Made by a program: the position numbers and the translations under genes. The notes under the pieces were generated by a model. That model had not been told where the DNA came from and searched no databases. It saw nothing but the letters and a program-made list of their open reading frames with translations. Shown here piece by piece: positions 1,701 through 9,266 of a DNA stretch of 64,000 nucleotides. Within the stretch, counting starts at the first letter, position 1. Each line of letters begins with the position of its first letter. Source of the DNA: Rhodococcus sp. Leaf278 (GTDB taxonomy: Bacteria; Actinomycetota; Actinomycetes; Mycobacteriales; Mycobacteriaceae); contig NZ_LMRR01000042.1 of NCBI RefSeq assembly GCF_001426085.1, positions 26,129-90,128 on the forward strand, given 5' to 3'.

Positions 1701-1898
1701 TTAGGCAACGCCCGAGCTGACGCGTGCCGCCTCCTCCAGTCCGACGATGTACTCGTCAATGGCCGTGTCGGGAATCAGTCGGCGCTTACCGACCTTGACA
1801 CTGCGAATCTCACCGGCCGCAAGCTTGTTGAACAAGTTGGAGCGTCCGAGACCCGTCCGAGCCATCGCTTCCTGGACCGAATACAACCGTCGAGACAT
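1701..1898 (-). CDS. xis: Excisionase-type helix-turn-helix protein
   Basis: This 65-residue protein begins at an ATG preceded by GAGAGGAAA, a good ribosome site at normal spacing. The sequence runs YSVQEAMARTGLGRSNLFNKLAAGEIRSVKVGKRRLIP, the MerR/excisionase winged helix (HTH_17 type). The recognition part covers residues 8-35 and the wing 36-44, followed by a short acidic tail. Such proteins bend the attachment DNA and direct a tyrosine integrase toward excision. It is divergent from the XRE regulator (139 bp apart), with the integrase just beyond, so the three form the usual control-recombination module. A small transcription factor of the same fold is the alternative. Confidence 0.8.
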   Translation of the reverse strand: MSRRLYSVQEAMARTGLGRSNLFNKLAAGEIRSVKVGKRRLIPDTAIDEYIVGLEEAARVSSGVA

Positions 1899-2037
1899 GG
1901 TGTTTCCTCTCCGACTTTTGTGTAATGAAGCCACAATCGGGTACTCGATCGAGCCTCGTCCATGTGGTTCCACCACAACGTAGCAATTCAGTAGCGTTGC
2001 CACAACACATACGCAAAATCGGCTAGACTGCGTGCTT
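1899..2037. promoter_or_regulatory. Divergent control region between xis and the XRE regulator
   Basis: This 139-bp spacer must carry promoters for both flanking genes. A -10-like TAGACT at 2024-2029 lies only 8 nt before the ATG at 2038, and no Shine-Dalgarno sequence precedes that ATG. This suggests a leaderless XRE transcript. The region is visibly more AT-rich than the host chromosome. No perfect operator palindrome was recognised. Confidence 0.4.
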
Positions 2038-2673
2038 ATGACACAGTCCTGGGCTGAACAGCTAGTGGCCCGCGTCGCCGGTGAAGTCCGGCGGCTTCGA
2101 GGCAAGGACCACTCCGCAATGTCAGCGGCGAAGCTCGCGGATCGCACCGAGGAGATCGGATATGGGATCTCGCGGTCGGTGGTCGCCGATTTGGAGACAG
2201 GGCGCAAGAAGAGCATCGACGTACCCGAGCTTCTGGTTCTCGCCGCAGCCCTAGGTGTTTCGCCGGCCCAGCTGGTTTTTCCTGATCTCCCCAGAGGCAA
2301 AGTCGAGGTACTTCCCGGGCTCGACCAGGAGTCCCACGATGCACTGCGATGGTTCAGCGGTGAAGCTGGCTTGATGAGGCCTTCGACCGACTGGTCGGAA
2401 CGTGGGGACGAGGAACCAGTGGACGTATGGGTCCGCGAGCAGTTCGATCCCAAGAACGATCGGGTGGGCCTTGTGCGCGAGTGGCTACAGGCGCTGCAGG
2501 CGATGCGTCGCGCACGCGTTCAGATGCGCAACGGCCTCTCCAAGCAAGACTCGGTGGAGCACGTCGAGGCAATGAAGTTCATGTATGAGGACGCGAGACG
2601 ACGCTCCGAGGAACTGTTTCGTCAGATGACCGAGCTCGACATGAACGTCGGTGATGAGGTGTCCGATGGCTAG
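2038..2673 (+). CDS. XRE-family helix-turn-helix transcriptional regulator
   Basis: The product is 211 residues from the ATG at 2038; a GTG at 2032 in the same frame is an alternative start. Residues about 12-75 form an XRE/Cro-type helix-turn-helix: a long first helix, then SAAKLADRTEEIGYGISRSV, an ADLETGRKK turn, and LLVLAAALGVSPAQL closing the fold. The remaining 130 residues are charged and end in a probable coiled helix (EHVEAMKFMYEDARRRSEEL). Regulators of this size next to xis and int are common in actinobacterial integrative elements, where they repress recombination or transfer genes. The stop codon overlaps the integrase start (2666-2673), so the two are probably co-transcribed and translationally coupled. 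Its target is not identifiable from sequence. Confidence 0.82.
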   Translation: MTQSWAEQLVARVAGEVRRLRGKDHSAMSAAKLADRTEEIGYGISRSVVADLETGRKKSIDVPELLVLAAALGVSPAQLVFPDLPRGKVEVLPGLDQESHDALRWFSGEAGLMRPSTDWSERGDEEPVDVWVREQFDPKNDRVGLVREWLQALQAMRRARVQMRNGLSKQDSVEHVEAMKFMYEDARRRSEELFRQMTELDMNVGDEVSDG

Positions 2674-3865
2674 GCAACAACTACCCCCACAGATCCGCAA
2701 AATTTCCGTGCGGGACAGAAAGTCCGGGAGACAACTTACACGCTACGAAGTCACGGTGGACACCGGTAGCAAGACCACCGTCAAGGTGGATGCAGCCGGC
2801 GTACCGCAAACGGTGACTCGCCGGACGCAGAGTCGCCGTCGATACTCGACCGAGCAAGCGGCACGGAGCGCGCTCGCCGAGACCCTCAACTCTGTGAACA
2901 ACGGCCTGTACGTTCACACTTCGCAGTTGACAGTCGAGATGGCAGTCAACTACTGGCTCGAATCGAAACACTCTTTGAAGCCGTCCTCCCTCCATGGCCA
3001 CCGAACCAATTTGCAGCCTGTGATCTCCGAGCTCGGGCACATTCCGGTTCAGAAGCTCACGAAGCCCAACGTCGAGTCCTTGGTGAGAAACCTCCGCAAC
3101 GGAGGACTTCCGACAAAGCAGGGACGACCGCGGAAACCATGGTCGGCGAGGACCGTGAACTACATGCTGGGACTGATCACTGCGATCCTCCAAGATCAGA
3201 TGAAGCAGGGCAATGTAATTCGGAACGTCGGTGCGATGGTCGATCGGCTTCCCGCCGAGGCTACCGAGATGCAGACACTCTCCAAACTGGAAGTCGACAA
3301 GTTGCTCGCGCACGTGGCTCGCGAGCCGATGCAGCATGCCTGGCAGCTGGCGATGCACGGGATGCGGCGAGGCGAAATCGCCGGTCTCCGTTGGGAGGAC
3401 GTCGACCTCGACAAAGCAAAACTAAAAGTCGCCAACACCCGCATCGCGGTTGGCAGCGACATCATCGAGGGTCCACCGAAGACCAAAAAGTCTCGACGAA
3501 CGCTTCCGATCTCGAAGCCACTCGAGGCAGCGCTCCGGGCGGCGCGAGCGCAGCAGGCGAGGGACAAGCTGAGCCTCGGCGAGCACTACCAGGAATCTGA
3601 ATATGTAGTCCGGTTGCCCAGCGGGCAGGCCGTCCACCCGAATTTGCTGACCTTCCGATGGAAGAAAATCCTCGAATCCGCGCAGCTCAGGCACGTGCGT
3701 TTGCACGACGCTCGACATACCTGCGCGACGCTCATGCACCTGCAGGGGATCCCGATCGCCGTGATTGCCGCCTGGCTGGGACACGCTTCTGCCGCGTTCA
3801 CATTAAGCGTATATACGCACTCGCAAGAAGACGCATTGATAGAGGCCGCGACAAGTTTTAAATAA
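2666..3865 (+). CDS. int: Tyrosine recombinase / phage-type integrase
   Basis: The protein has 399 residues from ATG 2666, with in-frame starts up to 15 nt earlier. It has an N-terminal arm-binding region (about 1-85), a SAM-like core-binding domain (about 88-200, beginning LTVEMAVNYWLESKHSL) and a C-terminal catalytic domain. Catalytic residues are visible: Arg in GMRRGEIAGL (R234), Lys in TKKSRR (about 274), HDAR at 347-350, His373 in WLGHAS and the nucleophile Tyr383 in SVYTHS. The enzyme is complete and looks active. Its start overlaps the XRE gene by 8 bp. It would integrate the element at an attachment site; the tRNA-Leu whose 3' end faces the island is the obvious candidate. The attP cannot be pinned down because only one island edge is in view. 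Confidence 0.93.
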   Translation: MARQQLPPQIRKISVRDRKSGRQLTRYEVTVDTGSKTTVKVDAAGVPQTVTRRTQSRRRYSTEQAARSALAETLNSVNNGLYVHTSQLTVEMAVNYWLESKHSLKPSSLHGHRTNLQPVISELGHIPVQKLTKPNVESLVRNLRNGGLPTKQGRPRKPWSARTVNYMLGLITAILQDQMKQGNVIRNVGAMVDRLPAEATEMQTLSKLEVDKLLAHVAREPMQHAWQLAMHGMRRGEIAGLRWEDVDLDKAKLKVANTRIAVGSDIIEGPPKTKKSRRTLPISKPLEAALRAARAQQARDKLSLGEHYQESEYVVRLPSGQAVHPNLLTFRWKKILESAQLRHVRLHDARHTCATLMHLQGIPIAVIAAWLGHASAAFTLSVYTHSQEDALIEAATSFK

Positions 3866-3915: not shown

Positions 3916-5064
3916 CTAGGCGACTACTGCATCCGAATCGCACGAGCAAGAGGACGATACTGCACTAGAGGCCTTCACCTGCGAAGGTACGTACCCGATT
4001 TCACGAAGGGCTTCGCTTACTGCGCCGATACTTAGATGCAACGCACCAGTACCGACATACTTGTCCGCAAAATTTGACGAACTAGCCAAAATTATGCGAT
4101 GAAAATCCGAAACTGCGCTCTGATTGACGGGGCGTAAAGCATAAACACAATCACTCAACACGACGGGATACGCTCCACGGTGAATACCAATCTTCAGCGG
4201 TACTGGATTACCGACTCGCGGGAGTAGCACAAATTCTCCCGTGGTGGCGAGTTGAGACGGCGCGAGCCGTGTCGCCCGCTGATTTCGACTGAGAATATCT
4301 GGTGTGTGCAAGAATGGTGTGTCGCATTCGCGGACAGGCCATGACTTATACGTCGGAACTCGCCCCCTTACCACCTCTACGCACCGACATACACCGGACT
4401 GATTCACCAAAAGATGCGTCTCGCCCGTAGGAGTTACACCACTCTGAGAGCCCAGAGGTGCGATCCTTGGAATAATCGACACGATTGACGTATTTGCTCT
4501 AGCTCCCACGAAAGCTGTCGAAGGCAGAACTTGCTCTATGCGAACTATATGAGTCTTCTCAACCTCCTCCCAAAACTCTCTGCAGCGACGTCCGGCCAAA
4601 ATACCGTTCGGCAGCACAGCCCAAACTCCAAAAATTGGGCGGAGTTCTTGCAAAACTACTGCCACAAAAGCGGCTGCTGGGCTGAGAAGACCATCGAAAC
4701 CGCGATAGCGACATGCGAGACCCGCTCCGCCACGGTAACTAAAGGGCGGGTTCAAAACAACCGCTGCAAGCGGGACGTTCTTACGGACGCTATTCCAGAC
4801 AGAACTAGATCTTCTCGATCTTTCGGACAGGAAGTTTACTCGGCCCAGATTCCAATGCGGGTTGCTTTTTGATAAAATGGACGTCGCATTTTGGTCGATA
4901 TCCATTCCGTACAACTCGACCCTCCGCCTGAAGCGCCGCTCGACTCCAGCCAAGAGCGCACCTTGCCCAACACTCGGATCAAGTATCGCGCCCTTCATCC
5001 CAGACGGCATCCACCCTGCGATGCAATCGGCAAGCCATTCCGGCGAATAATAACTGTCCACCAT
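3916..5064 (-). CDS. N6-adenine DNA methyltransferase (defence operon, gene 4)
   Basis: A 382-residue protein with the gamma-class amino-methyltransferase layout. Motif X is SYYSPEWLADCI (about 4-15), motif I DPSVGQGALL (29-38), followed by the acidic MDID, and catalytic motif IV NPPF is at 105-108. The remainder (about 200-382) could recognise DNA but matches no target-recognition domain I know. It is short for a Type IIG enzyme and has no PD-ExK nuclease motif, so it modifies rather than cuts. The ATG overlaps the preceding stop by one base (TAATG), so it belongs to the four-gene operon. It may mark host DNA as self for the ATPase/PRTase module, or act as an accessory. A Cys/Ser-rich tail (SSSCSCDSD) ends the protein. 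Base composition is clearly lower in GC than the chromosome. Confidence 0.82.
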   Translation of the reverse strand: MVDSYYSPEWLADCIAGWMPSGMKGAILDPSVGQGALLAGVERRFRRRVELYGMDIDQNATSILSKSNPHWNLGRVNFLSERSRRSSSVWNSVRKNVPLAAVVLNPPFSYRGGAGLACRYRGFDGLLSPAAAFVAVVLQELRPIFGVWAVLPNGILAGRRCREFWEEVEKTHIVRIEQVLPSTAFVGARANTSIVSIIPRIAPLGSQSGVTPTGETHLLVNQSGVCRCVEVVRGRVPTYKSWPVRECDTPFLHTPDILSRNQRATRLAPSQLATTGEFVLLPRVGNPVPLKIGIHRGAYPVVLSDCVYALRPVNQSAVSDFHRIILASSSNFADKYVGTGALHLSIGAVSEALREIGYVPSQVKASSAVSSSCSCDSDAVVA

Positions 5065-6059
5065 TACGAATCCTCGTGACCCGATAGTCCGTTTGTATCG
5101 TCAAACCTAAAGACGCTTGTGTTAACGAAGCCCGTTATGTCGTACACGCACAGACGAGCCTCACCTTTACTGCGTCTCTTCGACCGCACCGGATGATCAT
5201 ACACAATCTCTACCAAATTTCCACGAGAAATTGCGTATAAAACTGCACCTACTGCATGCGGTTTAGTCCCGATCGGAGCAACACGAATACCTTCGTGGGG
5301 ATTCCATGCATGAACTTCACTAAGCGTCAAGAAGGCATCAAACGGACAATTAGCCTTCGCGAATTGAACTTGCCGGTACACGAAGTTTGCCTCGATAACG
5401 GACCGATTTCTCGAATGCGCATAGAAGGAGTACTCCGGCCTGAATCCTGGAACTCCTACAATCGGAACAATGCGATCCGGCGGAGTTTCGGTACGGGACA
5501 AGATGTGGTTTAGCCTGGTACCCTCAAACCCAATCATTGGAACAAGAATTTCATCCGTTGACCCAGGACCTAGTCGGGCAAAACCTGGGATTGGCTCGAT
5601 ACCGCCAATCTTTTCGGACAGGTCATAAATTCCATCTTCTGAAATTGTTCGCGAGCTAGAATAAGTCTCGGGTTCTAGATAGATTAGAGAAATCGTTATC
5701 TCACCTATCACTGCCGCCCTCAGCAGCGGTGCCCAAGTTCGATGAGCTAATGCAGTAATATCTAACGTAATCGGTCCAGGTAAACTCTGCAAATATTCAA
5801 CAATGTCATCTGCATCGTGCAGGAATAGCTGTAATCCCGCACTCGCTGCATCAACTTCTGTCACCAGGACCGACTCGTTGCCCTGCGCGTCGATCGAAAT
5901 AAATTTGACATCGGTGAAGTTTGTCGTCGCATGCCACTCCGAGGCGACTGACGCGCGATCTTCATCTACTCCATTGCCAAAGATGAAGGTGCCGCCTGTC
6001 TTTGCAAACTGCCGCCTGTAAATCTCGTCGGTGAAAAGCGGCTCGTCAAGCCTATCCAT
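5064..6059 (-). CDS. Unrecognised 331-residue protein (defence operon, gene 3)
   Basis: I do not recognise this protein. It has 331 residues with no signal peptide or membrane segment and alternates predicted strands and helices. Distinctive segments are GGTFIFGNGVDEDRAS near 23-38, GPITLDITALAHRTWAPLLRAA near 95-116, ISLIYLEPETYS, then two Gly-rich loops, VPMIGFEGTRLNHILS and IVPIVGVPGFRPEY. The run of hydrophobic strands each followed by a loop suggests an alpha/beta Rossmann-like core. The C-terminal part (KPHAVGAVLYAISRG...VEIVYDHPVRSKRRSKG) could be a small domain with a basic tail. It overlaps the ATPase gene by 8 bp and the methyltransferase by 1 bp, so it is a fixed part of the operon. 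It may be an adaptor, sensor or effector; the sequence does not decide. Confidence 0.75.
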   Translation of the reverse strand: MDRLDEPLFTDEIYRRQFAKTGGTFIFGNGVDEDRASVASEWHATTNFTDVKFISIDAQGNESVLVTEVDAASAGLQLFLHDADDIVEYLQSLPGPITLDITALAHRTWAPLLRAAVIGEITISLIYLEPETYSSSRTISEDGIYDLSEKIGGIEPIPGFARLGPGSTDEILVPMIGFEGTRLNHILSRTETPPDRIVPIVGVPGFRPEYSFYAHSRNRSVIEANFVYRQVQFAKANCPFDAFLTLSEVHAWNPHEGIRVAPIGTKPHAVGAVLYAISRGNLVEIVYDHPVRSKRRSKGEARLCVYDITGFVNTSVFRFDDTNGLSGHEDS

Positions 6060-7956
6060 TGAAGAACCCGTCGTAAATCGACAATTGTTCAGGAAGAGCA
6101 GAGTCTACAACTGGAATTCGCCTAGAAAGTACTTTTTGAATGGTACGCCGTGAATTTTTCGACGTGAGAGACAAGAAATCTCCTGAACCAAGAGTCATTC
6201 GGCGTTTGCGCCGATGACTGAACTCAAAGTAAGGAGAAAAAATTGGATGCATCTGAAAGTCGACGTCTTTGGTTTCGCCAGATGACCGAGCATTCTTGTC
6301 CCCTGCGAAAGAAATTAGAGCTCCGTGCATTACCGCTGCCGAGAGAACCGAGCGCACCTCGTCCATGTCAGTATCTGAATTATAGCTTATTCGAAATTGA
6401 TTGACTTCCGGCGCGTGCCCCTGCGGCTCAGCTGCCATGACTTGAAAAATTCTTCCCAGTCCCAAGTTAAGGCGAACAAGTTGCGCACCACGTTCTGAAA
6501 GCCCCTCCAACTCGCGTAATGCCATCTGACCGACGCGGGACGCTGCAGCAGTTTGATCGCCTGCCGCCACTGCCTTATCTAAAGAGTGACCTCCACTAAC
6601 ATGAATCAGCAAGGCCTCATAAACTAACCTTAAAACATATCGTATATTACCATCCGATATCTGAGCGAAGGTTGACCAGCCGGAGTAGTACTTCCGGGTT
6701 CCGCGCTTTCCTTTCCTTAAAGTGAATAGAAGTGAATAGGAGTGGTTCCTGGTTCGAGTCATCCATTTTCTTGGATCGCGGATTGCGTCGTCTAACACAT
6801 CGATCTCCCGACTATTCTGCGCCTCCGCCCAGTAACCAATCATGCAGGCGCTGACTAGCCGCATACTGTCAAAATGCTCCAGTTGTGAGTCGGGTGCTTT
6901 CTGCTGAACGAGACGGTTTCTAACGACCTCCCTTTGCCACTCACCTCCCAACAATATAGCTTCTTGCTCTTCGAGTAATTCCGGCAATAGGTGCGTAATG
7001 GAAACTTCTGGCCTGAATCCAACCGGCAACCGACTCAGACGCCCGTCACATACTTTCTCTGCAAAGGATGCAAAAGACTGCTCTTTTAGGTGATCAACAA
7101 TATCAATTGTTGTGTAATCCGCGGGGTCGTGCAATGGCTGATTTTCGGCCAATGTGGTTCGCTCACGCTCAGATACATTACGGGTGCCAATTTTGAATGT
7201 ATACCCACCATCACCGACATGTTTAATTAGCGTATTGATCACCCGCTGCTGATACGGCTGCAAATTTTCGAATTCATCTAAACAGAACGTGAACGTAAAA
7301 CCGTCTAAGCGCACGTCTTGACGCAGAGCCTTCACCAAGTACTCAACCGGTTTACCTAGGCTCGACAAACTGAGCTGGCCAAGCGCTCGCGATATCGAGT
7401 TTAATCCTGCTTCAAGCTTCGCCAATTCGTAGCCGACACGCTTACGCAACGACTCTAGATTCTGCGGTCCATCGATATTCAGAGAAATGGATGTGAGCGC
7501 GAGGGCATCCCCGTCAGGAAAATTGATAGGTCCTGAATTATTCTCGAACCATTTTACGAACTCGAACAGCTTAAGTACAAGCTGCAGATTGACGTAGTGG
7601 CTGAAAATATGTGTCCAAGTCTCCTCCGAGACTCGTCTGCCCCTGAAGGCGGTTACAACATTGCTTTCAAACCGCCAGTATGCACCGACCGCAGTCCATT
7701 CGTTAATGTCGGACCCTACCAGCTTGGACTGACCTTCGTAGGCAAGGCCACGTAGCGTCGTAGTCTTACCTGTCCCGCGTCCCCCGATGAGCATGCACGG
7801 TCTTTTTCCGACCAACTGTGACCAGTAGACCGGTGTTGAGAAAATCTCGAATAGTTCCTCGCTAGCTAGATGCTCGGTTCTAACCTGGCCGAAGGCAAGG
7901 CTCAGCTCCTTCTGTAGCGATTCAATTCTGGAGTCAGGCAACGCGTGATCTGTCAT
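6052..7956 (-). CDS. ORC/CDC6-like P-loop ATPase (defence operon, gene 2)
   Basis: A 634-residue protein from the ATG at 7956. I chose this start over one 24 nt upstream because GGAGG sits 5 nt before it and it forms an ATGA overlap with the previous stop. Walker A is GGRGTGKTT at about 58-66, and Walker B is FCLDEFENL at about 224-232 with the Asp-Glu pair. KIGTRN at about 255-260 fits a sensor-1 position. A long, mostly helical C-terminal half follows. STAND/ORC-CDC6-type AAA+ proteins bind DNA or ligands and switch on nucleotide hydrolysis. I recall computational work pairing ORC/CDC6-like ATPases with PRTase-like domains in predicted conflict systems, which fits the upstream gene. As the only energy-using member it is the likely sensor or switch. 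Confidence 0.8.
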   Translation of the reverse strand: MTDHALPDSRIESLQKELSLAFGQVRTEHLASEELFEIFSTPVYWSQLVGKRPCMLIGGRGTGKTTTLRGLAYEGQSKLVGSDINEWTAVGAYWRFESNVVTAFRGRRVSEETWTHIFSHYVNLQLVLKLFEFVKWFENNSGPINFPDGDALALTSISLNIDGPQNLESLRKRVGYELAKLEAGLNSISRALGQLSLSSLGKPVEYLVKALRQDVRLDGFTFTFCLDEFENLQPYQQRVINTLIKHVGDGGYTFKIGTRNVSERERTTLAENQPLHDPADYTTIDIVDHLKEQSFASFAEKVCDGRLSRLPVGFRPEVSITHLLPELLEEQEAILLGGEWQREVVRNRLVQQKAPDSQLEHFDSMRLVSACMIGYWAEAQNSREIDVLDDAIRDPRKWMTRTRNHSYSLLFTLRKGKRGTRKYYSGWSTFAQISDGNIRYVLRLVYEALLIHVSGGHSLDKAVAAGDQTAAASRVGQMALRELEGLSERGAQLVRLNLGLGRIFQVMAAEPQGHAPEVNQFRISYNSDTDMDEVRSVLSAAVMHGALISFAGDKNARSSGETKDVDFQMHPIFSPYFEFSHRRKRRMTLGSGDFLSLTSKNSRRTIQKVLSRRIPVVDSALPEQLSIYDGFFNG

Positions 7957-8915
7957 CTTTTCCTCCGAAGCGTCGTCCATCCCGAGTTCTCGCTGGTAAA
8001 AATTGGTAGCGTGTTATCCGGCACGCCGTGCTCAAACGCTAAGGCAAGACCCATGTCACCGAACCCGAACTTGTCCTCGATTTTGTACCCGGCAGGATGG
8101 GCATAACGCGCCAAAAAGCCCGGCAATTCGGCGCGTAGGTTGGCAGGAACCAGATTTGTCTCCGAATACTCGGGATTTGCAAAGTATTCGTCAGGTAGAA
8201 GATGTGCCGGGCGCACCATTACCGTCGGACACTGCATAGCGATTTCCCGCTTGGCGTAAGCCGTACAGATGGCCGGCGTGTAGTAGACTTCTCCGATCCG
8301 CCCATCAGCCTGCAGCAATGCGAGGCTCGTCGCCGCATCACTTTGTCCGTCGGAGATTTCTCGAAACCACACTTGTAAAAATTGGGTGCCGGTTGCTGCG
8401 AGATCGTCGACAAACACCAGGTCGATAGCTCCTTGACCTTGGTTATGCGTTACGTAGTCACCTATTGCAGCAGGGTCTCGCAATTGGCCAGGGTTCGTCA
8501 CGAGGTTGCCCCTTGCGCTTCTAATGAAAATGTGACCTGAGCCGGCCGGGTCGTAGATGTCGCCAGTCGGGTATGTGACAACAACATTACGTCTGAATGT
8601 CTGCCATCGATTTACAACCGACTCGCTAGGCGGCAAGGCACTTCTGAACGTGGTCGATAGGGAATGAAACGCGGAGCTGACCATCTTTTCGACGTGGGCG
8701 CTGTTCAGATACACGAACGATTCAAGTAACGCGGCAGCTATCTCGCGGTCGCGGGCAGTACCAAAATTATCAAGCCAACCCGTAGGGTTGATGTCACCCG
8801 GTTGTCTCGGCCAGAGCCCAATATTCGAGTAGAACTGCCGCCTCGACCGCGACTCGACCTCTGACAAGGCACCTCGTCTTTCAACTCCATCGTAGCGTCG
8901 TATGTACGTAGCCAT
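7953..8915 (-). CDS. Phosphoribosyltransferase-like protein (defence operon, gene 1)
   Basis: A 320-residue protein from ATG 8915; a GTG at 8969 in frame would add 18 residues, and neither start has a strong ribosome site. The hallmark is LVFVDDLAATGTQ at about 166-178, matching the PRPP-binding loop of type I phosphoribosyltransferases (hydrophobic strand, two acidic residues, then TGT). A Gly-rich segment near 119-137 (DIYDPAGSGHIFIRSARG) could be a second loop. The C-terminus HGVPDNTLPIFTSENSGW is a strong family-like tail. This tail and the helical N-terminus are unlike biosynthetic enzymes, and no purine, pyrimidine or amino-acid pathway gene is nearby. From memory it fits the PRTase-like conflict-effector type that is paired with ATPases. 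It is the promoter-proximal gene and ends in an ATGA overlap with the ATPase. Substrate is unknown; nucleotide or tRNA modification is conjecture. Confidence 0.78.
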   Translation of the reverse strand: MATYIRRYDGVERRGALSEVESRSRRQFYSNIGLWPRQPGDINPTGWLDNFGTARDREIAAALLESFVYLNSAHVEKMVSSAFHSLSTTFRSALPPSESVVNRWQTFRRNVVVTYPTGDIYDPAGSGHIFIRSARGNLVTNPGQLRDPAAIGDYVTHNQGQGAIDLVFVDDLAATGTQFLQVWFREISDGQSDAATSLALLQADGRIGEVYYTPAICTAYAKREIAMQCPTVMVRPAHLLPDEYFANPEYSETNLVPANLRAELPGFLARYAHPAGYKIEDKFGFGDMGLALAFEHGVPDNTLPIFTSENSGWTTLRRKR

Positions 8916-9189
8916 GGTAGTGCCCGGGCGCAGGCTGGCGTCGCATTTATCCACTGTGCGGCGACACACGTGAGACGAAGCGAACCCGACGACCTAGCCG
9001 AAGAGGCCATGCTTACCGGACAAGACTGGCATGAGCCGCGGACAGTTCACCGGCCTCGTAGGACGCTAGTTAACTACAGGTCCAGCAAGACGACCGCCGC
9101 CAGTTATTTTGACTTGTGACATTCTGTGACACCGAAGTGCGTGTTCGAACCATCGCTGATGCAGCGTAACGCGCTGACCTGCGCAAACA

Positions 9190-9266
9190 TGGTGCCCCCA
9201 GTCGGACTCGAACCGACACTGTGCGGATTTTAAGTCCGCTGCCTCTGCCAATTGGGCTATAGGGGC
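9190..9266 (-). tRNA. tRNA-Leu(UAA), short variable arm; probable island attachment site
   Basis: Read on the minus strand it folds as acceptor GCCCCTA / TGGGGGC, D arm GCCC...AGGC, anticodon stem GCGGA / TCCGC with loop CTTAAAA, five variable bases ACAGT, T arm GTCGG-TTCGAGT-CCGAC, then A and an encoded CCA. The anticodon is UAA, reading the leucine codon UUA. The body is 74 nt without CCA. It lacks the long variable arm expected of tRNA-Leu. I recall a 74-nt tRNA-Leu at the same place in Mycobacterium tuberculosis. The 3' end faces the accessory region, the usual geometry for tyrosine-recombinase islands. Confidence 0.9.

Follow-up and report, generated by a model that had tools for sequence, protein, structure and literature searches.

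The question raised by a 64,000-nucleotide stretch of Rhodococcus sp. Leaf278 (contig NZ_LMRR01000042.1, positions 26,129 to 90,128; hereafter, the window) is what common function is served by four overlapping genes that lie between an integrase gene and a tRNA gene. The first-pass annotation, made from the sequence alone, had read them as a defence operon encoding a phosphoribosyltransferase (PRTase)-like effector, an ORC/CDC6-like ATPase as the sensor, an unknown 331-residue protein and a self-marking N6-adenine methyltransferase. According to our analysis, the operon very probably has a role in biological conflict. We hold it about evenly balanced whether it is, more specifically, a modular, horizontally spread anti-phage or anti-plasmid operon working by the mechanism proposed below, and we give the same weight to its division into a core, formed by the ORC/CDC6-like ATPase and a CARF6 receptor, and two slots, one for an effector (here PRTase-CE) and one for DNA modification (here an N6-adenine-type methyltransferase).

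Composition of the operon and families of its proteins

The operon comprises the following genes:

7953..8915, minus strand: PRTase-CE protein, 320 aa, ATG start, predicted effector (a GTG at 8969 is also open)
6052..7956, minus strand: ORC-CDC6-like AAA+ ATPase, 634 aa, predicted switch (an earlier ATG at 7980 is also open)
5064..6059, minus strand: CARF6 tandem-CARF protein, 331 aa, without an effector domain
3916..5064, minus strand: N6-adenine-type DNA methyltransferase, 382 aa, predicted to set the self-mark

The coordinates of the open reading frames (ORFs) bear out the arrangement described earlier, and all three junctions are reproduced: ATGA between the PRTase and ATPase genes, 8 bp between the ATPase and CARF6 genes, and TAATG between the CARF6 and methyltransferase genes. 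The ATG of the ATPase gene at 7956 is immediately preceded by GGAGG. The region is AT-richer than its surroundings, as had been noted: a recount of bases 7561-7620 again gives 26 G/C, the GC content is 51.2% in positions 3916-8915 against 64.4% in positions 9400-64000, and third-position GC is 48-59% in the four operon genes, compared to 75 and 83% in ppx and eno (named by eye), which lie further right.

The family assignments of the parts are close to certain. The PRTase matches the Pfam family PRTase-CE (PF24390, E = 1.6e-31, 110.5 bits against a cut-off of 27) and the PADLOC PRTase_III-A models (E = 9.4e-14), with support for the type I phosphoribosyltransferase fold. The ATPase matches ORC-CDC6-like (PF24389, E = 1e-124, 417.9 bits against a curated cut-off of 27); the Walker A pattern is found in 71 of 73 ORFs of this family, and the D and E of Walker B are invariant across eight ATPase sequences. 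The methyltransferase has an NPPF motif and falls just under the cut-off of N6_Mtase (PF02384, E = 9e-4, 19.1 bits against 20.4), which its relative on plasmid pKPHS2 exceeds; its family profile matches the M subunit of EcoR124 (E = 7.2e-19) and the BseCI and TaqI enzymes, the activity itself being predicted. Hence, the three identities proposed in the first-pass annotation are confirmed by Pfam and family profile matches.

The 331-residue protein, whose identity had not been seen, is a tandem-CARF protein and a predicted nucleotide receptor. It matches eight PADLOC CARF6 models (the best being PDLC01913, E = 1.4e-95) and has the CARF fold; its GTK segment at residues 264-266, a segment with a role in CARF domains, is nearly invariant among 45 sequences. 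No effector domain was recognised by Pfam or PADLOC on the ATPase or CARF6 protein of the window. Sequence searches of PDB with the CARF6, PRTase and ATPase profiles yielded chance-level matches only (best E = 0.01, 0.18 and 0.032, respectively; 0.94-1 for Csm6 with the CARF6 profile).

Recurrence of the gene set and exchange of its parts

A scan of 84,980 species genomes with the ATPase yielded at least 39 loci. Together with seven loci from plasmid and phage collections (L004-L010, six plasmid loci and one phage-collection locus, hand-picked from 150 records), two from viral contigs and the window itself, they form a set of 49 loci, in which the near copies L011 and L032 are both counted. 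Alignments of eight distant members contained no stretch conserved enough to serve as a query, and closer sets were used instead. Loci L001-L003 (the window), L013 (same contig as L011), L126-L140 (found with a tRNA query) and L053-L098 (short match stretches, for which a wider region was fetched or already in hand, or which were weak) were excluded before counting.

The ATPase gene is adjoined by CARF6 in all 49 loci and by PRTase-CE, a predicted CE-type effector, in 48, with the order PRTase-ATPase-CARF in 48 loci. The methyltransferase is of the window type in 41 loci, belongs to other DNA methyltransferase types in five (L007, L047, L048, L049, L051), and is missing beside the core in three (L021, L050, L052). 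It is mostly encoded downstream, the exceptions being upstream genes in L006, L009, L037 and L040 and genes on the opposite strand in L008 and L012. The loci span several bacterial phyla and include one archaeon with a PRTase; among the sources are Arthrobacter sp. 9AX (L014) and Pseudomonas sp. NFACC02 (L043, whose operon has a dUTPase). Thus tabulated, the four-gene set is not scattered but recurs in many genera, and is therefore not a chance grouping. Within the phylum of the window, model PDLC01913 matches one of 396 genomes, namely the window's own, so this CARF6 subtype is rare there. A housekeeping ORC protein was considered and rejected: PF24389 exceeds its cut-off in none of 14 control genomes, with one match below the cut-off, in Caulobacter.

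The four proteins diverge in parallel. In the 42 loci with all four genes (L011/L032 represented once), their pairwise distances correlate with r of 0.88-0.94, while the best of 1000 permutations, a control that leaves the shared species history in, reaches 0.37. This agrees with the earlier view of a four-gene island operon, as do the integrase here, the plasmids in relatives and the catalogued Pfam and PADLOC families.

These data bear on the possibility that the methyltransferase travels as a passenger, protecting the element against restriction by the host, and that the PRTase, ATPase and CARF protein work without it. Its absence from three of the 49 loci and its varying position (upstream, downstream, other strand) are consistent with such a role, but in the remaining 46 a methyltransferase is present, with exchange for other families rather than loss, and its distances follow those of the other proteins at r 0.88-0.89. 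We consider the passenger role unlikely.

In the wider sample of 1439 genomes, taken in five phylum-wide draws, the ATPase family was matched in at least 41 (5/200, 12/398, 4/346, 13/296 and 7/199); the tally includes the five centre genomes, picked for their match, and since three to six candidates were scored per genome, all these numbers are lower bounds. Regions were taken from 25 of the 41, leaving aside 12 weaker matches (E from 1e-10 to 1e-6) and four already sampled. Upstream of the ATPase or fused to it there is a PRTase in eight regions, HD-CE in four, a calcineurin-type domain in four (two near-identical) and a fused kinase-like domain in six, with no effector assigned in L120 (a broken copy) and L125, and L124 being unclear. 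CARF6 was identified, by our own model or by PADLOC, in 22 of the 25 regions; of the others, L107 is a near copy of L106, L124 has a weak match (E = 8e-6), and L125 none. In L111 the kinase, ATPase and CARF form a single protein that matches the PADLOC model CARF_STK_AAA (PDLC01925) over almost the whole length; L115 is likewise a fusion. Such fusions support joint action of the ATPase and CARF. Five changes of the effector type are enough to account for the ATPase tree (69 rows, L011/L032 represented once), compared to 13.8 with shuffled labels; several branches are long, making the placement unsure.

The methyltransferases beside the core belong to the N6, N6_N4, C5 and D12 families. The HD, calcineurin, C5, D12 and kinase models were built from the same loci they were applied to. 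All four HD seeds, as well as those for C5 and D12, are confirmed by Pfam; for the calcineurin type, Metallophos is matched by the seeds from L106 and L114, and the seed from L117 has a match to the associated wHTH domain only. The kinase domains of L101, L102 and L116 are above the Pfam cut-off, those of L111, L115 and L121 below it, and the C5 labels of L099, L113 and L119 come from our own model alone.

Several loci have peculiarities of their own. L109 and L110 contain a distant PRTase-ATPase-CARF6 set preceded by a SIS/HAD-type gene (by Pfam in L109, by eye in L110); L109 additionally has NADAR, and L110 a gene that looks sugar-kinase-like by eye. L120, from the sample of the phylum of the planctomycete Botrimarina, has the CARF in two pieces and an adjoining ThyX gene in addition to the broken ATPase copy. 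An impression, by eye, of a TIR-like N-terminus in the ATPase of L052 had no support from Pfam, PDB or PADLOC, and is not claimed.

Proposed mechanism and competing explanations

In the mechanism we favor, the methyltransferase would mark the resident DNA, and invading DNA without the mark, or a nucleotide pool shifted by infection, would serve as the trigger. CARF6 would bind the resulting nucleotide ligand, the ATPase would change its state or assemble on DNA, and the state of the ATPase and CARF6 would release the PRTase, which may attack a nucleotide, NAD or a nucleic-acid base, so that growth stops. The operon may, in short, mediate a methylation-licensed, CARF-gated abortive response, as we infer from the unrelated enzymes beside the core, the exchange of methyltransferases, and the BREX/Ssp and PRTase precedents discussed below. 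The roles proposed earlier for the PRTase and the methyltransferase gain support from replacement in relatives, of the former by HD, calcineurin-type or kinase domains, of the latter by other DNA methyltransferase families; as these different families occupy one slot, DNA marking as such is favored. The proposal that the ATPase is the sensor stands in part: since the third protein proves to be a tandem-CARF protein predicted to read a nucleotide, the likely sensor is formed by CARF6 and the ATPase together, not by the ATPase alone.

Several observations weigh against this mechanism. In addition to the three loci without a methyltransferase noted above, it is missing in 9 of the 22 wider-sample regions with an assigned effector (L118 counted as present), in particular, in 3/6 kinase, 3/4 calcineurin-type, 1/4 HD and 2/8 PRTase regions, and hence methylation is not required by every member. 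It is unexplained how a sensor would follow the switch from N6-adenine to C5-cytosine methylation, and no source of the ligand is encoded in the operon. The HD and calcineurin-type domains are also typical of signal-degrading enzymes, which means that the enzyme in the slot might adjust the signal instead of killing. Moreover, some motifs are not universal: the PRPP (phosphoribosyl pyrophosphate)-type loop pattern of the PRTase ORFs is missing in 3 of 57 (L006, L028, L118), the Walker B search pattern in 27 of 73 ATPase ORFs, including that of the window, and the EP..Y pattern in 9 of 68 CARF ORFs.

The role of the variable slot may be viewed differently, with its enzyme (PRTase, HD or calcineurin-type) making or destroying the nucleotide that is read by CARF6, and the ATPase acting. 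The slot enzymes do act on nucleotides or phosphoesters, and PRTases of Ter systems have been proposed as signal makers (PMC7824862). However, a single receptor family would then have to read unrelated products, and the window's ATPase and CARF6 protein carry no recognised effector domain. As the same receptor and switch adjoin unrelated enzymes, and the kinase members make no nucleotide, effectors are favored over signal makers, and we regard the signal-making role as improbable.

The mobility of the operon in relatives allows for yet another explanation. The tblastn searches with CARF6 and with the ATPase each matched 148 plasmid records with identical organism counts (Klebsiella 129, Serratia 7, Enterobacter 3, and others), of which 133 are typed as conjugative; the more diverged PRTase matched five plasmid records at E = 0.01, including a pair from Bradyrhizobium (E = 0.01), outside the genera matched by the ATPase and CARF6. 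The Klebsiella form is carried on plasmids by 4 of 5426 E. coli genomes, whose names mark them as laboratory recipients. The ATPase also matched two phage-collection records and two viral contigs, one of which was matched by CARF6 as well. The operon could thus be an addiction or maintenance module, in which the PRTase is the toxin, cured cells are killed once they lose the methyltransferase and thereby the mark, and defence is a side effect; the plasmid counts, the position 1.3 kb from repA on pKPHS2 (L009) and the integrase adjoining the operon in the window are in line with it. Still, the change of effector and methyltransferase families around a constant receptor-switch core fits an arms race better, and it is hard to see what a CARF receptor would contribute to simple addiction. 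The 39 loci from genome assemblies lie on contigs not sorted into chromosome or plasmid. Overall, we think this explanation has a low probability.

As regards the trigger in the favored mechanism, a hint comes from neighbouring genes. Clustering of same-strand neighbour ORFs produced four recurrent families, dimeric dUTPase, ThyX, trimeric dUTPase and MazG/PRA-PH-like, while the other clusters consisted of CARF6 proteins missed by our own model and of one near-copy pair. All ten members scanned were confirmed by Pfam (dUTPase_2, Thy1, dUTPase, PRA-PH); these four families represent at least three unrelated folds. An accessory gene is found on the operon strand within 300 bases in 17 of 73 loci. 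L038 has a second one, an opposite-strand dUTPase 39 bases away; L103 has an opposite-strand dUTPase 153 bases away, and L047 a split ThyX at 1.5-1.7 kb. Overall, 19 of the 73 loci have accessory genes for the metabolism of deoxyuridine triphosphate (dUTP) and thymidine monophosphate (dTMP) within the operon or close to it:

L004, L007, L010, L019, L023, L024, L027, L028, L031, L033
L038, L040, L043, L046, L047, L048, L103, L119, L120

The loci cover 1.19 Mb, in which no further matches to the accessory families (E up to 1e-5) were found; what remains of these sequences is the sole control. The seven loci with a dimeric dUTPase form one clade of the ATPase tree; ThyX is found on separate branches, accompanying PRTase as well as HD effectors. 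In the window locus, a profile search of the sequence found no dUTPase, ThyX or MazG-like genes.

We take these genes as a hint of a link between deoxyuridine or thymidine nucleotides and the receptor or its trigger; alternatively, they might resupply dTMP after the action of the effector. A bolder and rather doubtful extension would be a separate class of immunity, in which methylation of self DNA is coupled to an ORC/CDC6-CARF switch whose input is a deoxyuridine or thymidine nucleotide. A disturbance of the dUTP/dUMP/dTMP pool by infection, or unmarked DNA brought in by it, would then fire one of several exchangeable effectors, and the accessory dUTPase, MazG-like and ThyX enzymes, in removing the signal, would determine the threshold.

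Genomic context, known systems and significance

The following features flank the operon in the window:

1701..2129, minus strand: HTH_17 protein, possible excisionase (PF12728, E = 2.4e-6; ORF open to 2453)
2032..2673, plus strand: Cro/CI-type helix-turn-helix regulator (HTH_3, E = 1.1e-5)
2651..3865, plus strand: tyrosine integrase, convergent with the operon (PF00589 Phage_integrase, E = 1.1e-20; phrog_1, E = 2.8e-57)
9190..9266, minus strand: tRNA-Leu (TAA, by ARAGORN), bordering the island and probably used for integration

Both the adjoining integrase and the tRNA at the border, proposed in the first-pass annotation, were thus found. The attachment site proposed along with them is supported by related genomes, where the 3' half of tRNA-Leu is repeated 17-85 kb downstream (G1496, G1499) or 176-302 kb downstream (G1497, G1498), one such repeat being at L146 18830-18878, but not by the window's own contig, where no copy of the tRNA 3' end is present to the left of the tRNA across 27 kb and a further 8.1 kb to the contig end; in the same interval the far end of the carrying element was not located. 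Another contig of the same genome (C14) contains the 3' half twice, at 86-94% identity. The repeats in relatives and on C14 suggest a used integration site, so that tRNA-Leu is a probable integration hotspot, and the repeats may bound islands. ParA-like and relaxase-like ORFs (named by eye) to the left of the window make an integrated conjugative or plasmid-like element likely. Positions 1-123 are duplicated exactly just left of the window start (L122 17877-17999), where the ORFs contain unknown residues; this likely reflects scaffold joins, and hence the left end is unsure.

Elsewhere, a locus from a record titled Acinetobacter phage (L010) is surrounded by efp, cstA and a threonine dehydratase gene, with tRNA-Val beside the operon; it thus looks chromosomal and is no evidence for phage carriage. 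The locus from an "Akkermansia" metagenome-assembled genome (L046) is a close neighbour, on the ATPase tree, of that from a Burkholderiales one (L027), which makes its host label doubtful. In L004 an annotated NACHT protein is encoded near the operon, and in L005 a PDC-S02 type nuclease, which resembles the setting of defence islands.

Each part of the operon has been catalogued before, while the function of the combination is predicted here from sequence. The window proteins or their relatives match the Pfam families ORC-CDC6-like (PF24389), PRTase-CE (PF24390), HD-CE (PF24391) and wHTH-Calcineurin_assc (PF24408), whose names and close accession numbers suggest that they were catalogued together by others; the work of Burroughs and Aravind from 2020 is said to be their likely source. 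They also match the PADLOC CARF6 models including CARF_STK_AAA, an entry that belongs to a CARF catalogue and is not a described system, reportedly derived in all likelihood from the work of Makarova and others of the same year. No publication on the full four-gene set turned up among the papers listed in the literature searched. A tested relative is possible, since the legend to the validated E. coli systems of DefensePredictor names a PRTase (PMC13092281).

A PRTase is the presumed effector of type III retrons (PMC12548924), and a PRTase with DprA reportedly acts against T7 and lambda in a P2-like phage system (PMC9122126). The operon shares with both a presumed PRTase effector placed under another sensor, but the window proteins scanned match no reverse transcriptase or DprA family, and control is by CARF6 and the ORC-like ATPase. 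That the operon is a retron-like system with a missed reverse transcriptase is very improbable: the PRTase matches the PRTase_III-A models of PADLOC, as a type III-A retron would require, yet none of the seven window proteins scanned, to which this search was confined, belongs to a reverse transcriptase family. In BREX and Ssp, an ORC/Cdc6-clade ATPase is paired with DNA modification (PMC12839542, PMC10853773); here, no PglZ or phosphorothioate gene is present among the proteins scanned, and there is a nucleotide receptor with an exchangeable effector instead. Of restriction-modification, the DNA methyltransferase is present by profile, without a cognate endonuclease, no nuclease family being matched by the four operon proteins in library scans.

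Unlike the SAVED receptors of CBASS (cyclic oligonucleotide-based antiphage signalling systems) and the CARF effectors of type III CRISPR, the receptor here is a separate protein without an effector domain. Assignment to either was rejected: there is no CD-NTase among the proteins scanned and no SMODS match in the genome, and no match to the Cas10 palm model (PF22335), with one model used for each cyclase type. As the CARF receptor resides in a genome without matches to these two main cyclase-type models, it may respond to a new ligand, and the recurrent dUTP/dTMP enzymes offer a concrete first guess at what this is. If the favored mechanism is correct, the family would be a widespread immune-type system in which the restriction nuclease is replaced by a receptor-gated exchangeable effector, with the self-marking methyltransferase mostly kept, and its members on Klebsiella plasmids (129 of the 148 plasmid records) may influence which phages and plasmids can establish themselves in these hosts.

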